DNA of 51,061 bases from the NCBI GenBank assembly GCA_030019025.1, contig JASEFR010000005.1, forward strand, positions 29,127 to 80,187, read 5' to 3'. Below are positions 28,372 to 37,978 of the stretch, piece by piece. Both the position numbers and the translations under genes were made by a program. The notes beneath the pieces are model-generated. The model had not been told where the DNA came from. It saw only the letters and a list, made by a program, of their open reading frames with translations, and searched no databases. Position 1 is the first letter of the stretch. Each line of letters begins with the position of its first letter. The stretch is from a bacterium. Lineage in GTDB: Bacteria; Hydrothermota; Hydrothermia; UBA1063.

Positions 28372-29507
28372 AAAAGATTGACTCTTACCTCATAAAAAAC
28401 TTGCTCCTTTCCTTCGCTGGTTCGGTCTTTGCTCTTACCCTAATACTTTTGGTAAACACCGTCTTCCAGCTTATGGACCTTCTCATTAGAAAAGGTGTTC
28501 CCTTCCCAACGGTAGTGAAACTAATTGCCTATACCCTGCCCTTCATTATGAATATGACAATACCCATGTCTTTCCTCGTTGCAGGCCTTCTAACTTTCGG
28601 TAGAAGTGCAGGGAACAATGAGATATTATGTCTTAGGAGTTCGGGGATAGATCTCAAAGTGGTGCTAAATAAATTGGGGCTCATTATGGTAATCATTGCT
28701 TTTTTAAATCTCATCTTCAATTTGTTTATCTTGCCTGAAACTAATTACCGCATGAAGAAGACACTATACGAGATAAGGATTAAAAAACCTGCAATAGAGA
28801 TAGAACCTGGGTACTTCAACAAAATTGAAAATTATTTGATTTACGCGGCCTCAAAGGATGAAAAAACAAGTATATTGAAAGACGTAAAAATACAAGAAAT
28901 TAAGAGGGATGGGGTTCGTTTTATTTCTGCCAAGGAAGGAAAGATTCGCTCAACCACGGGGGGAAGCCTGATTTTAGAACTCTTGAATGGAGAGTTTCTT
29001 GAGGTTAAGGGGGAAAAGAAGGAGCAACTAAGAAGGGCAAGCTTTAAGAAAGATGTACTGGTGTTGAAAGTTGAGGAGGGAAGCTTTTACAGAGACGTGG
29101 TTTACAGATCCGACAGGGAAAAGAATTACTTCACCCTCCTTAAAGAAATCCGCGACGCCAGGAAGGAGTTAGTAAACTACCCGAAAAACGACAAAATCTC
29201 TCGAAATTTTGTTAGAAGACGTATAAATACCATTTTGGCTGAAATAAATACAAGATTTGCCCTATCCTTTGCCTCCATCGTCTTTGTATTCCTTGCTTTC
29301 CCCATTGCTCTGAGGTTTAAATTCTCCGGGTATGGTTCAGCCCTTGGTGTCTCTTTCTTTTTCTTTATCATCTACTACATTCTTCTTTTGGCAGGTCAGC
29401 AGACTGCCCGTAGGAGCCTCTTCAATCCCTATATAGCCCTCTGGACTCCAAACCTGATCTTCGGGATGTTCTCATTTGTTTTAACTAAAAAAGAACTGGA
29501 AAAATGA
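28368..29507 (+). CDS. LptF/LptG (YjgP/YjgQ) family permease
   Basis: The product has 379 residues and starts at GTG 28368, overlapping the DUF2905 stop. Three membrane segments near the N-terminus and three near the C-terminus enclose a periplasmic beta-jellyroll region (about 130-270), which is the LptF/G architecture. NNEILCLRSSGI is a typical cytoplasmic loop. It would extract lipopolysaccharide or a similar lipid from the inner membrane with LptB. Only one such gene is seen here; the partner must be elsewhere. This supports a two-membrane cell. Confidence 0.88.
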   Translation: MKKIDSYLIKNLLLSFAGSVFALTLILLVNTVFQLMDLLIRKGVPFPTVVKLIAYTLPFIMNMTIPMSFLVAGLLTFGRSAGNNEILCLRSSGIDLKVVLNKLGLIMVIIAFLNLIFNLFILPETNYRMKKTLYEIRIKKPAIEIEPGYFNKIENYLIYAASKDEKTSILKDVKIQEIKRDGVRFISAKEGKIRSTTGGSLILELLNGEFLEVKGEKKEQLRRASFKKDVLVLKVEEGSFYRDVVYRSDREKNYFTLLKEIRDARKELVNYPKNDKISRNFVRRRINTILAEINTRFALSFASIVFVFLAFPIALRFKFSGYGSALGVSFFFFIIYYILLLAGQQTARRSLFNPYIALWTPNLIFGMFSFVLTKKELEK

Positions 29508-32709: not shown

Positions 32710-33492
32710 GTGAAAAAATTCAACTATTTTTTAATAGACCTTGACGGAACTCTGATCTTGGGCAAAAGGGTCCTGGATGGAGCGATTGAACTACTCCAAG
32801 AATTGAAAAGTCACGGGAAAAAATTTCTCATCCTTACCAATAATTCTTCTAAAAGCAGTTTTGCTTACCTCAGGTTTCTCAGACAACTTGGGTTACCCGT
32901 TGGTTCCGAAAACATCTTCACATCTGGCAAAGCCACTGCGATGTATCTAAAGGAAATGGGCATAAAGGAGGCATACATCATTGGTACGAAAAGCACCATA
33001 AGGGAATTTGAAACCTACGGGATCAAATTTAACTTAAAGAGCAGGAATCTGGTCTTGGCCTTTGATACCACACTGAATTTTAAAAAACTTGAAAAGGCTA
33101 CAGAAATCCTTAAAAATAAAAAGGGGGTTTACATTGCCACACACCCTGATAACATCTGTCCCATTGAAAATGGTTTCATCCCCGATGTGGGTTCCTTTAT
33201 AGCGCTTCTTAAAGAAGCAACGGGACAAATTCCCGACTTCATACCTGGAAAACCCAGTAGATACTTCTTTACCAAGGCTATGGATTTGATGAATGCATTT
33301 CCAGAAGAGACCGCAATCATAGGAGACAGGCTTACAACGGATATCAAAACAGGGAAAGACTTTGGAATAACTTCCATGCTCGTCCTCACAGGAGAGACGA
33401 AAAGAGAGGATTTGGAGAGATCGGAAATAAAACCCGATTTCATTTTTGAAAATCTCACCGATTTATTAAAATTTTTAGGAAGATACTTATGA
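32710..33492 (+). CDS. HAD-IIA family phosphatase (NagD/PNPase-like)
   Basis: The product has 260 residues and starts at GTG 32710. Motif I is DLDGTL near residue 8, motif II is LTNNSSKS and motif IV is GDRLTTDIKTG near residue 205. A cap with a NGFIPDVGSFI block places it in subclass IIA, with NagD and nitrophenylphosphatases. It hydrolyses small phosphate esters in the cytoplasm. It heads an operon with the DRTGG gene and the kinase-helicase, overlapping the next gene by 4 nt. Confidence 0.88.
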   Translation: MKKFNYFLIDLDGTLILGKRVLDGAIELLQELKSHGKKFLILTNNSSKSSFAYLRFLRQLGLPVGSENIFTSGKATAMYLKEMGIKEAYIIGTKSTIREFETYGIKFNLKSRNLVLAFDTTLNFKKLEKATEILKNKKGVYIATHPDNICPIENGFIPDVGSFIALLKEATGQIPDFIPGKPSRYFFTKAMDLMNAFPEETAIIGDRLTTDIKTGKDFGITSMLVLTGETKREDLERSEIKPDFIFENLTDLLKFLGRYL

Positions 33493-34630
33493 GAAAGACC
33501 GTTCTCTTCATTGCTTCATCGGGAAGGAATGTGGGTAAAACTTCAGTTTCCATAGGGCTTTTCAACTACTTCAAAGAGAGAAATAAAAAAGTAGCCTTCA
33601 TAAAGCCCGTAGCTCAGCACTATACTGAAACATCGGGCTTCAAAATATCAAGAGACGTAATTTTGCTCAACAAAATATACAACTATCTGGATGAAGGGAG
33701 ATTGCACCTTGCAAGCCCCTTTGTTATTGAATCTGGATTCACAAAATCTTAAGAGCATTCGAAAAAATTTTAGAAGAGTTTGACGTAGTAATTGTAGAAG
33801 GAACCGGACACCCGGGTGTCGGTTCCTGTATTAACCTCTCCAATGCAGCTGTTGCCAGAATGCTTAACGCAAATACCCTTCTCGTTCTGGAAGGTGGAAT
33901 AGGTAACACTATTGACAATTATAACCTTGCTAAATCGGTCTTTAAGAGTGCTGGCTGGCCTATAGATGCGGTTATTATTAACAAAGTGAGGAAAGAAAAA
34001 TACGCTGAGGTAGATAGAACGCTGAAGAAATTTTTCCGAGGAGAGGATGTATATTACTTAGGAACGATTCCATTTGTGCAGGAACTCTCAATGCCCTCCC
34101 TAAGACTTATATGCGATACTATTGAAGGCGATATACTCCAAAGAGAGGATCTTTTAAAGGGAAAGGTGAGCAACCTTTTAATGGCAATAAACGAACCCCA
34201 CATTTTCTTAGAGGAAATTGAAAAGAGCAAAGAGGAGAACCTGATTCTTACAACGGGAGACAGAGAAGACATCTTGATGGCCATTTACGCCATTTACAAC
34301 CAAATGAAAACAAAAATTAAAGCCCTCATCGTCTCTTCCATACCTCCCCACGAAAGGATTATAAACCTTTACAAGGAACTACCTTTACCCATCGTATTCA
34401 CCAGAAACAGCATATTTAAAACCGCGAGTCTAATTTCGGGTATAACTGTGAAGATAGACCCATACGAGAGTGAAAAAATCAAAACCCTACAGAGTCTCTT
34501 TGATGAATTCATTGAAGATAGCCAGCTCAAACGTTTTGTTAACCTTGCCACAAGAAAGGTAGAAAGGCGAGGCTTCAAGGAAAGCGTTGGTAAATTCTTC
34601 GGGTTCCTTAGGGACATTTTCAAAGGATGA
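33489..34630 (+). pseudogene. P-loop/DRTGG-domain protein gene with a single frameshift
   Basis: The first frame (33489-33752) encodes a BioD-like P-loop start (IASSGRNVGKTS). The rest continues in another frame, open from about 33740 and including 33860-34630. At ACAAAATC near 33738-33743 one base appears missing from an A-run: adding it joins GFTK directly to ILRAFEKILEEF and VVIVEGTGHPGVG, a typical AAA_26 block. The C-terminal half carries a DRTGG domain (TTGDREDILMAIYAI). The total would be about 381 residues, the size of the standalone AAA_26-DRTGG proteins related to the N-terminal region of large phosphotransacetylases. Good conservation on both sides suggests a sequencing error or a very recent mutation. 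It overlaps both neighbours by 4 nt. Confidence 0.8.
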
Positions 34631-37278
34631 TAATTCCTGAAAGACTTGGAAAATACCGGATTATTGAATTTCTCGGTTCTGGTTCCTTTGGCTCTGTTTA
34701 CTACGCCGAAGATACGCTATTAAAAAAACCCGTAGCAATCAAAGTTCAAACAGCAAGAGCAGAAAAAAGCAAAGAATTAATTGAAGAAGCAAGGACACTA
34801 TTTGAGTTAAACCACGAGAACATAGTAAGATTTTTCAACATAGAAATCATTGATGACAAGATTGTCCTCGTAATGGAGCCGGTGCGTGGACAGACTCTCA
34901 GAGATGTAATCGAAGGGCAAGCACCCTTAAAGGTCGAAGATGCGTTAAATATGATAAAAGAAGTCCTTAAAGCGTTAGATTATGCCCACAATAAGGGTCT
35001 CGTTCATGGAGACATAAAACCAGAAAACATACTTATAAGCGAAGAAGGAAAAATCAAACTGGCCGACTTCGGCTTGGCAAGGATCCTTGGCAAAGGCGAA
35101 CTCAAGCCCACTATCGCAGGCACCCCTTTTTATATGGCTCCAGAGGCGTGGAAAGGAGAAATCACAAGTTTTTCTGATATTTACAGTCTTGGTTGCATCC
35201 TATTCGAACTCCTTACAAAAAAGCCTCCATTTTATGCAGAAAATATAGAGGAGTTGAGAAATAAAGTCTTCAACGCCCGTATAGATAAGATACCTGGCGT
35301 CTCCTTCGAAGTTAACGGACTGGTTAAAAAAATGCTGAATAAAATTCCCGCAAAGAGACCTTCGGCAGGGCAAATCCTTTCGGAGATCGATAGGATTATG
35401 AAAAGTCCGGAGATAAATTTCTTTACCATTGAAAGCAAAAAGAAAGGAACATTCTTTGGAAATCTCACGGAAGAACAAATAGACTTCGTAAAGGATTCCA
35501 ATGATGTGATCATTTTAAGAGGGGTTGTAGGTAGTGGAAAAACAACTTCCTTAGGTTATAAAGTAGTATATGAAATCAAAGTAAAACAGGAAGAGCCCCA
35601 AAAATTTCTCTTTCTAACCTTTACAGGAAAGGCTGTAAACCTTTTCCGAGCAATTCTCGAAAAACTACTGGAAGAAGAGGTTGCAAGGGAAACAACTGCG
35701 GTCACCTTTCATCAATTTGGCCAAATGGTATTGAGGTACGGAATCGAAAGATTGGGATTCTCCGAGGACTTTCGCGTGATTACAGACAAAGAAGCCCAAG
35801 ATATTTTGAAAGCCTTTGTTGGCAATGCCGTTCAGGCAAAAGCCTATCTCAGGGAAATCAAACTGGCAAAGGCAAACCTTTTAACGCCAGATAAACTGGA
35901 GGCTTTGGCAGAATCAGATTGGATGCGAGAGGTCGCCTACTTTTACAAAAAATACCAGGAAGAACTTACAAGAATGAATTCCCTTGACTTTGAAGATTTA
36001 ATTTTTAAAACCGTTTTTCTCCTCCAAACACACCCAGATATCAGAGGAGATGTACAGGAACGCTTCAGATTTATAATCGTCGACGAATTCCAAGACGTTA
36101 ACAAAGCGCTCTATGAATTGATTTTACTATTAAAAGGTCCCAAAAACAAACTATGGGTCGCAGGAGATGAAACCCAATCTATCTACGGCTTCCGCGGTGC
36201 ATCCCCAATATTCTTGAAAAACCTCGAATCAAAATACCCCGAAGCATCAAAACACTTCCTGTCAAAAAACTTCAGAACCGCGAGAAAAATCGTAGAGGCG
36301 GGATTAAACCTTTTAAGCCACAGCAGAGAAATCAGGCAGGTACAACCAACTACCTTTCTTATTGAGGAAGAGGGTAACGTTTCAATCTCTTATTTTGAAA
36401 ATGAAATAAAGGAGGCTTATTACGTTGCTGAAAGGATCAAAGACCTCAAAGAAGAGGGTATCGATTACACAGATATGGCAATAATCTACCGCACAAACGA
36501 CTATTCCAGAAGTATAGAAGATGCTCTTAAAAAATACGAGATACCTTATACCATCCTGGAAGGGGAAAGTTTTTACGATCTCCCCGAAATAAAGGTCGCT
36601 CTCGGGATAATAAATCACTGCTTAGGGAATTTTGAAGGCAAAAACATCGAATATCTTTTGAAATATTTTTTAAAAATACCTGCAAATATTGCAGCAAAGG
36701 CAATAAGAAAATATGAAGGCAGTGGGCGTGTGGATGTCTCAGGAAAAAGAGAAGAAATTTCAAGTGAGCTAAAAACACTAAATGCCTTCCTTTTGAAGTT
36801 AAAAAAAGAAATAGATGAGGAAACATCACCAAAAGAACCTTATGAAATTACTGAGGAAATAGTAAACTTTGGGCAAAGTCAGGGATGGTTTTCTTCAAAA
36901 TCCATAGAAATTTTGCAGGAATTCTTGACTTCGCTTCACGAGACGGGAATAAAAAATCCAAAAGATGTCTTCAACTATGTTTCTTTGATGCGAGAGGTGG
37001 GAATATCCACTACAAGACATTTCGGAGTGCTTTTGCTCACTGCCCACAAGGCAAAAGGCCTCGAATTCAACACAGTCTTCCTGGTTGGCCTCGTTGAAGG
37101 ACTTTTCCCACTCGGAAAGAAAATCCTGAAAAGAGAACATTTGGAAGAGGAAAGAAGGCTTTTGTACGTAGCATTGACAAGGGCGCAGAAGAACCTTTTT
37201 CTGACTTATCCTTTATACTATAGAAATGAGAAAAAGGAACCTTCTAGATTTATTCTTGAACTTATGAAAAGGAGATAA
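34627..37278 (+). CDS. Hanks-type Ser/Thr protein kinase fused to a UvrD/PcrA-like SF1 helicase
   Basis: The product has 883 residues in one uninterrupted frame. Residues 8-262 are a full protein kinase: glycine loop GSGSFGSVYYAED, VAIK with Lys39, HGDIKPEN with catalytic Asp129 (the usual HRD is HGD), Asp147 of DFG and APE at 171-173. Residues about 280-883 are an SF1A helicase: Q-motif-like LTEEQ, Walker A GSGKTT with Lys305, VDEFQD with Asp486-Glu487, GDETQSIYGFRGA near 515, HKAKGLEF near 807 and YVALTRAQ near 847. All key residues of both parts are present. No transmembrane segment or PASTA domain is seen. The protein probably couples ATP-driven DNA unwinding with phosphorylation. Repair regulation or phage defence are both possible. 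It starts at ATG 34627, overlapping the upstream gene by 4 nt. Confidence 0.93.
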   Translation: MIIPERLGKYRIIEFLGSGSFGSVYYAEDTLLKKPVAIKVQTARAEKSKELIEEARTLFELNHENIVRFFNIEIIDDKIVLVMEPVRGQTLRDVIEGQAPLKVEDALNMIKEVLKALDYAHNKGLVHGDIKPENILISEEGKIKLADFGLARILGKGELKPTIAGTPFYMAPEAWKGEITSFSDIYSLGCILFELLTKKPPFYAENIEELRNKVFNARIDKIPGVSFEVNGLVKKMLNKIPAKRPSAGQILSEIDRIMKSPEINFFTIESKKKGTFFGNLTEEQIDFVKDSNDVIILRGVVGSGKTTSLGYKVVYEIKVKQEEPQKFLFLTFTGKAVNLFRAILEKLLEEEVARETTAVTFHQFGQMVLRYGIERLGFSEDFRVITDKEAQDILKAFVGNAVQAKAYLREIKLAKANLLTPDKLEALAESDWMREVAYFYKKYQEELTRMNSLDFEDLIFKTVFLLQTHPDIRGDVQERFRFIIVDEFQDVNKALYELILLLKGPKNKLWVAGDETQSIYGFRGASPIFLKNLESKYPEASKHFLSKNFRTARKIVEAGLNLLSHSREIRQVQPTTFLIEEEGNVSISYFENEIKEAYYVAERIKDLKEEGIDYTDMAIIYRTNDYSRSIEDALKKYEIPYTILEGESFYDLPEIKVALGIINHCLGNFEGKNIEYLLKYFLKIPANIAAKAIRKYEGSGRVDVSGKREEISSELKTLNAFLLKLKKEIDEETSPKEPYEITEEIVNFGQSQGWFSSKSIEILQEFLTSLHETGIKNPKDVFNYVSLMREVGISTTRHFGVLLLTAHKAKGLEFNTVFLVGLVEGLFPLGKKILKREHLEEERRLLYVALTRAQKNLFLTYPLYYRNEKKEPSRFILELMKRR

Positions 37279-37279
37279 A

Positions 37280-37978
37280 ATGATACCCCTTAAAGACCTT
37301 AACCCATCCAGGAGATTTCCGATACTGAATTTTATTTTGATTTTCGTTAACGTTATCGTTTTCTTTTATGAACTTTCCCTGGGAAGGGGAATTGTTAAAT
37401 TTTTTTACGAATTCGGTTTTGTTCCCTATAACTTTACCTTATACTTAACTGGCAGGACTGATACCCCCTATATTACGCCGATTTTCACATCTATGTTTCT
37501 CCATGGTGGGTGGGCCCACATTATCGGAAATATGCTCTACCTTTACGTATTTGGAGATAACATTGAGGATACTCTCGGGAAAGTGGGATATCTCCTCCTA
37601 TACACCCTGTCAGGAATCTCTGCAATCTTTGCTCAGTACATTATCTCGCCTCTTTCAAGAATTCCGATGATTGGTGCCTCTGGTGCGATTTCAGGAGTTC
37701 TTGGGGCATATTTAGTGTTTTTCCCACAGGCGAAGATTATCTCTTTGGTACCTGATCCCTTTACTTTTGGCCTCTTTTTTAGAATAGTTCCGATCAGCGC
37801 ATTTTACTATCTCTTCATATGGTTTTTACTTCAGTTAATGCAGGGTGTGGCAACACTTCCCTTCGCCGGAAAGATCGGTGGAACCGCCTTCTGGGCCCAC
37901 ATAGGAGGCTTTATCTTTGGTGTAGTTTACGCCATTATATACCGCTCATTCAAGACTTACAGGCATAAGAAGGTATAA
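37280..37978 (+). CDS. Rhomboid-family intramembrane serine protease
   Basis: The product has 232 residues, starting behind AAGGAGA that lies inside the end of the kinase-helicase gene. Six or seven membrane segments carry HGGWAHIIGNML, the nucleophile motif GASGAISG and the late AHIGGF His. The catalytic Ser-His dyad is thus present. It cleaves membrane proteins within the bilayer; substrate unknown. It follows the kinase-helicase by 1 nt. Its 3' end overlaps the convergent dnaN by 33 bp. Confidence 0.92.
   Translation: MIPLKDLNPSRRFPILNFILIFVNVIVFFYELSLGRGIVKFFYEFGFVPYNFTLYLTGRTDTPYITPIFTSMFLHGGWAHIIGNMLYLYVFGDNIEDTLGKVGYLLLYTLSGISAIFAQYIISPLSRIPMIGASGAISGVLGAYLVFFPQAKIISLVPDPFTFGLFFRIVPISAFYYLFIWFLLQLMQGVATLPFAGKIGGTAFWAHIGGFIFGVVYAIIYRSFKTYRHKKV

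Follow-up and report, generated by a model that had tools for sequence, protein, structure and literature searches.

The stretch of DNA analyzed here (referred to below as the window) comprises 51,061 nucleotides from a bacterium of the phylum Hydrothermota (positions 29,127 to 80,187 of contig JASEFR010000005.1, assembly GCA_030019025.1), and carries at 34627..37278, on the + strand, a single open reading frame for an 883-residue protein in which a Hanks-type Ser/Thr kinase is fused to a UvrD-type helicase. This arrangement, recognized in a first-pass annotation made from the letters of the DNA, is borne out by Pfam domain matches and by relatives in the same phylum. The kinase domain (residues 10-252; 34654..35382, + strand; Pkinase, E 2e-60) contains, according to a residue alignment and motif table, all features of a Hanks-type enzyme, namely a G-loop, the Lys (K39), the alphaC Glu (E54), an HxD motif in the non-RD form H127-G-D129, the Asn (N134), D147-F-G and an APE motif (E173). 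It is followed by a linker of ~27 residues (253-279; 35383..35463, + strand) and by the two parts of the helicase: a UvrD-helicase domain (residues 281-538; 35467..36240, + strand; E 1.7e-57) with Walker A GxxGSGKT (K305), DEFQD (486-490) and GDETQSIYGFRGA, and a UvrD_C domain (residues 545-861; 36259..37209, + strand; E 2.2e-46) with NFR, HKAKGLEF and EERRLLYVALTRA in the motif table. The presence of both UvrD domains, of Walker A, DExQD and GDxxQSIY motifs and of the motif VI arginine places this half among the superfamily 1A (SF1A) helicases, and, as had been noted, the protein has no receptor domain. An AlphaFold model of the fusion (mean predicted local distance difference test score, pLDDT, of 85; predicted template modelling score, pTM, of 0.55) folds both domains confidently, and the linker (pLDDT about 30) is predicted to be disordered at residues 261-274; its length is 22-32 aa in 36 aligned relatives.

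The fusion is a real family, and neither a mis-join of two genes nor the product of a missing stop, because the whole protein recurs in other species of the same genus (79, 61 and 59% identity) and in more distant relatives across the family, order and class (33-41% identity). It was found in 63 of the 147 genomes of the phylum and in 19 of its 37 family groups; contig ends truncate a few of the copies, and the carriers include several single-contig assemblies. The source genome itself (1.73 Mb, 58 contigs) is 98.9% complete. The annotation had considered that homologues existing always as two separate genes would speak against a working fusion, and what was found is that they are fused within the phylum and separate in the other phyla sampled, where 32 genomes contain the kinase and the helicase only as separate genes. 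No fusion was detected in 298 and 168 genomes of two other phyla and 47 of a third, a search in which strict thresholds and the few candidates scored per genome mean that its emptiness shows little, and plasmid and phage records contained no match covering 80% of the query.

Phylogenetic analysis of the two halves shows how this family came about. All of the fusion kinases in the kinase tree (41/41) fall in a single clade with a Shimodaira-Hasegawa-like approximate likelihood ratio (SH-aLRT) support of 100, and their nearest kin are stand-alone kinases of ~350-400 aa in two families without the fusion (f3 and f9; here and below, f denotes a family group, G a genome, with G000 the source genome of the window, L a locus and C a contig). 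In the helicase tree, after three long-branch rows including one fusion (L147) had been left out, 38/38 fusion helicases likewise form one clade (SH-aLRT 100), outside which the stand-alone PcrA/UvrD proteins of the phylum are placed; when the long-branch rows were kept, a Thermotogota plasmid helicase was pulled to the long branch of L147. Because the fusions make up one clade in both the kinase and the helicase trees, the fusion arose once, and since the branching mostly tracks family groups, its inheritance appears to have been mainly vertical. The protein at L147 (G076:C35) is a strongly diverged fusion with long branches in both trees, yet its gene adjoins one for ARPP-1, the partner considered below.

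Residues K39, E54, D129, N134, D147, E173, K305, D486, E487, Q517, R523 and R852 are invariant in the 36 aligned fusions, and thus include those that had been cited at the outset as evidence that both halves keep their catalytic residues (K39, D129, D147, K305, D486 and E487). Within the genus, non-synonymous divergence (dN) ranges over 0.07-0.22 in the kinase and 0.15-0.36 in the helicase, making the kinase the better conserved of the two, and synonymous sites are close to saturation in both; both halves are therefore under purifying selection. Together with the invariant catalytic residues, this supports the earlier view of the protein as an intact fusion, not a decayed hybrid. The kinase subtype, in contrast, differs between lineages: the HGD that had been remarked on in place of HRD is right for the window's genus (4/4 fusions), whereas HRD is found in each of the other 32 fusions aligned, and the activation loop (residues 150-164) contains 0-1 Ser/Thr in the four genus members and 1-6 in the other 32. 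The HGD motif is therefore a change restricted to this genus and accompanied by loss of most activation-loop Ser/Thr, so that the window's kinase lacks the combination of HRD and a phosphorylatable activation loop that defines the RD type. When read through general knowledge of RD kinases, a non-RD motif with few loop Ser/Thr suggests that this genus gave up activation-loop control while retaining catalysis, and its kinase is probably no longer activated by phosphorylation of that loop.

What is new here is the recognition of a gene associated with the fusion, which encodes one type (type I) of the protein family ARPP-1 (PF20208). In 25 of the 28 loci outside the window's class, ARPP-1 adjoins the fusion on the same strand, an arrangement seen in nine families (f18, f25, f27, f28, f29, f30, f32, f34 and f37) in which it mostly lies directly upstream, usually within about 200 nt, often within 10 nt and sometimes overlapping. 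The three exceptions are a locus whose ARPP-1 is on another contig (L132, in G112), one that stops at a contig end (L148) and one in which ARPP-1 is ~1 kb upstream (L150, in G091). Any ARPP-1 is present in 60/63 genomes with the fusion versus 21/84 of those without it (Fisher p 2.5e-19, with no correction for relatedness), and the source genome carries one at G000:C6 (Pfam E 2.9e-61).

The ARPP-1 proteins split into two types along a 100/100 branch. Type I proteins (about 280-330 aa) have no evident signal peptide, and all 30 of their tree rows come from genomes with the fusion, while type II proteins are about 315-425 aa and the two that were inspected start with a hydrophobic, signal-like stretch, features from which type I is predicted to be cytoplasmic and type II secreted. 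The ARPP-1 found in 21 genomes that lack the fusion is of type II in 16 cases and of type I in three (G008, G024 and G103), the remaining two (G009 and G022) being short partial matches; the three with type I are drafts of fusion-bearing families, and in G103 the gene ends near a contig edge. Type I is retained together with the fusion even where the two are unlinked, and type II does not track it. Invariant residues of type I are Q83, R85, C105, E107, R110 and Q150, with Q83, C105 and Q150 invariant in 28 proteins, and the copy in the source genome has the invariant Cys and Gln residues; its structure is modelled confidently (pLDDT 91.6), and no fold match in the PDB was obtained at E<=0.001. 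Distances among fusion helicases and among ARPP-1 proteins are correlated (Spearman 0.51), a value confounded by their shared phylogeny. ARPP proteins were first described in predicted conflict systems and proposed there to act on ribose moieties; the neighbourhoods reported contain the partner family found here, whose invariant Cys and Gln the proteins studied here share, and the passages on ARPP pairs do not list a kinase-UvrD fusion among those described (Iyer et al., 2022; PMC9503650).

Among the side observations on these loci, a protein of ~214-235 aa that by appearance resembles a small transposase separates ARPP-1 from the fusion at L193, and such a protein is directly upstream of the fusion at L150. 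Within the window's class, type I (loci L207 and L208, L209-L211 and L202-L204) adjoins genes for RelA/SpoT in f8 and f11, for the diadenylate cyclase CdaA in f4, with a homologous gene in f10, and for GGDEF-AAA-TPR and NUDIX proteins in f1.

Comparison with known systems shows that each half of the fusion has well-studied relatives. In Foldseek searches, the helicase half comes closest to the solved structures of PcrA, Deinococcus radiodurans UvrD and Rep, and the kinase half to those of PknB and kinases related to it. All SF1A motifs are common to the fusion and PcrA, UvrD and Rep, and PcrA is its best NCBIfam match, but the scores of 337 bits for PcrA (cut-off 911), 302 for Rep (951) and 281 for UvrD (1144) place it outside these equivalogs, and it differs from them in its N-terminal kinase and in forming its own clade apart from the stand-alone PcrA of the phylum. 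With PknB-type kinases it shares a complete catalytic core, but it lacks PASTA or other receptor domains (221 bits against the NCBIfam PASTA-kinase model, cut-off 450) and has a C-terminal helicase. Architectures that join a NERD domain to a kinase or to a helicase exist, and PglW of BREX type 2 and NERD-kinase proteins resemble the fusion in linking a Ser/Thr kinase to a DNA-related domain; a NERD domain, by contrast, was not detected in the fusion. Bacillus subtilis YabT, a DNA-activated Hanks kinase with RecA and SsbA among its substrates, resembles the fusion in combining a kinase that lacks a receptor domain with a coupled DNA-binding element, which in YabT is a short basic stretch accompanied by a membrane helix and in the fusion a predicted ATP-driven motor (PMC6333020). 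RqkA of D. radiodurans is also a bacterial Ser/Thr kinase and acts in the response to DNA damage, and the abstract and outline of the source describe no helicase fusion for it (PMC6052341). No description of a kinase-UvrD architecture was found in the open-access literature searched, so, as had been surmised earlier, the architecture is apparently undescribed.

On balance, the fusion is best read, with a probability of about one half, as a chromosomal 'motor kinase', in which a flexible linker joins a cytoplasmic Hanks kinase to a PcrA/UvrD-type translocase; type I ARPP-1 would be its working partner, and the pair would serve to maintain DNA or to signal damage to it, not to defend against phage. 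Based on homology to PcrA/UvrD, the helicase half would load on single-stranded DNA, such as that of gaps, 3' tails or stalled forks, and translocate 3'->5'; because of the precedents of YabT and RqkA, such engagement may be coupled to phosphorylation, with DNA binding or crowding altering how active the tethered kinase is, much as YabT responds to DNA. The kinase might then phosphorylate itself, ARPP-1 and/or proteins of DNA metabolism, or could gate the motor, so that control may run in either direction, and ARPP-1, if the role proposed in print for its family holds here, would act on the sugar moiety of DNA or of a nucleotide. What the analysis itself establishes is the architecture, its single origin and roughly vertical inheritance, selection on both halves, and the co-occurrence and adjacency with type I ARPP-1; how kinase and motor are coupled, in which direction and on what substrate, and what ARPP-1 does chemically, are inferred. 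The fusion and its conserved companion make a specific, testable system for how the engagement of a helicase on DNA could lead to protein phosphorylation. In bacteria, a Ser/Thr kinase is seldom attached directly to a motor that works on nucleic acids. The pair hints at an undescribed way to report or handle trouble on DNA, and ARPP-1, a family of no known function, gains a cellular partner. A more far-reaching version, which is tentative and rather improbable as a whole, is a two-protein response to DNA lesions in which the helicase motor directly switches its attached kinase and is paired with ARPP-1, either as an enzyme or as a lesion-capturing protein whose fold has no PDB match, to form a motor-coupled checkpoint kinase independent of LexA and SOS.

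Several observations weigh against the motor-kinase reading. Within the window's class, ARPP-1 is unlinked to the fusion (0/20 loci examined, and none in the window), the immediate neighbours of the fusion vary between families, and those of type I ARPP-1 vary as well among GGDEF-AAA-TPR and NUDIX, RelA/SpoT and CdaA. In addition, the co-occurrence counts ignore phylogeny, the AlphaFold model places the two domains relative to each other without confidence (pTM 0.55), and LexA is not associated with the fusion (36/63 genomes that carry it versus 39/84 others, p 0.24). A role for the fusion as a substitute for LexA/SOS was rejected on this lack of association and on the presence of LexA in the source genome. 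When SOS operators were looked for, no shared palindrome was seen, and lexA in the genus apparently lies directly behind another gene.

The suggestion that DNA damage or foreign DNA could trigger phosphorylation has survived in part. That engagement with DNA is tied to phosphorylation is still the most likely interpretation, whereas the foreign-DNA or phage component finds no support because the gene is chromosomal, inherited roughly by family, absent as a fusion from plasmids and phages and surrounded by housekeeping genes. An effector of anti-phage or foreign-DNA defence, comparable to kinase-containing BREX/MADS systems or GajB-type helicases, is accordingly an unlikely identity for the fusion. 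Matches to the PADLOC models of mad6, PD-T4-6 and GajB, and the original report of ARPP in predicted conflict systems in the part of that work cited above (PMC9503650), would favour it, but these PADLOC matches are at the superfamily level and cover a single domain, the NCBIfam scores are far below threshold (mad6 199 versus 460, PglW 88 versus 990) while the helicase scores best with PcrA, and, judged by model scores and neighbouring genes, the fusion is not a member of BREX type 2 (PglW), MADS (mad6) or Gabija (GajB). Partner genes of BREX type 2/MADS were not found among the neighbours examined, a scan of neighbours and not of the whole genome, and neither a PADLOC scan of three neighbours nor the Pfam scans of neighbours revealed GajA; furthermore, all four species of the genus carry the fusion and its tree largely groups by family, with no copy on plasmid or phage records.

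A less probable reading than the motor kinase, yet one to be taken seriously, is that the role of the kinase is confined to regulating the helicase, or the reverse, within a general repair or replication enzyme that sends no outgoing signal, ARPP-1 being co-inherited with a separate function. The flexible tether, the unlinked ARPP-1 of the window's class and the identity of the fusion as the only PcrA-size SF1A helicase found in several lineages are all compatible with this. A stand-alone helicase of that size was not found in nine genomes (G004, G059, G068, G069, G070, G072, G112, G100 and G101), drafts that may be incomplete, and any other UvrD-family matches in them are frames of ~1050 aa, a size like that of AddA/RecB; in these genomes the fusion may therefore do the general work of UvrD/PcrA. 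Most genomes of the window's class, however, keep a separate PcrA/UvrD, as the source genome does (a 694-aa frame), which means that they do not need the fusion just to provide that helicase, and the near-exclusive co-occurrence with type I ARPP-1 and adjacency in nine families argue for a joint pathway. It is improbable that ARPP-1 instead acts on a ribose-containing nucleotide signal, with the kinase-helicase as a DNA-linked sensor or effector of an alarmone module. The RelA/SpoT (f8, f11), CdaA (f4, homologue in f10) and GGDEF-AAA-TPR and NUDIX (f1) neighbours of type I are in line with such a module, as is the action on ribose moieties proposed in the part of the published work cited (PMC9503650), but RelA/SpoT and CdaA are housekeeping genes, each associated in two families only, and outside the class it is the fusion that ARPP-1 adjoins. 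Finally, an artefact of assembly or gene calling that joined two genes, for which an interruption in the upstream neighbour could be invoked as a sign that the assembly is imperfect, is refuted by intact fusions in 63 independent genomes, several of them single-contig, and can be set aside.

That upstream neighbour, at 33489..34630 on the + strand, overlaps the start of the fusion by 4 nt and encodes a protein with AAA_26 and DRTGG domains (resembling BioD and the N-terminal part of phosphotransacetylase). It is intact (388-393 aa) in G003, G001 and G004 and interrupted in the window around 33743-33749, where the frame changes and about 11 residues of the relatives are absent; this may reflect a real mutation or an assembly error. 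Downstream, 1 nt after the fusion, is a gene for a rhomboid-family protease (37280..37978, + strand; Rhomboid E 1.9e-34), a neighbour conserved in the window's genus only, and the window also contains genes for an LptF/G-like protein, a GTPase, a HAD hydrolase, dnaN, dnaA and a ComEC-like protein. The AAA_26-DRTGG protein, the rhomboid protease, dnaN and dnaA were rejected as partners of the fusion, their conservation beside it stopping at the family or genus, and the AAA_26-DRTGG protein is a mere neighbour outside the module.

In three further genomes (G041, G107 and G117) neither the fusion nor a PcrA-size helicase was found, and the UvrD-family matches are mainly frames of ~955-1108 aa. 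A PP2C enzyme was rejected as a cognate phosphatase of the fusion, being present in only 3/10 genomes, all of the window's genus, with the match in the source genome located near the locus of a different kinase. This second Ser/Thr kinase locus of the source genome (L003; G000:C1:98269-98724), close to which the PP2C match lies on the same contig, consists of a short frame only, matching query residues 8-150, and its relatives in G003, G001 and G004 are frames of about 704-726 aa.

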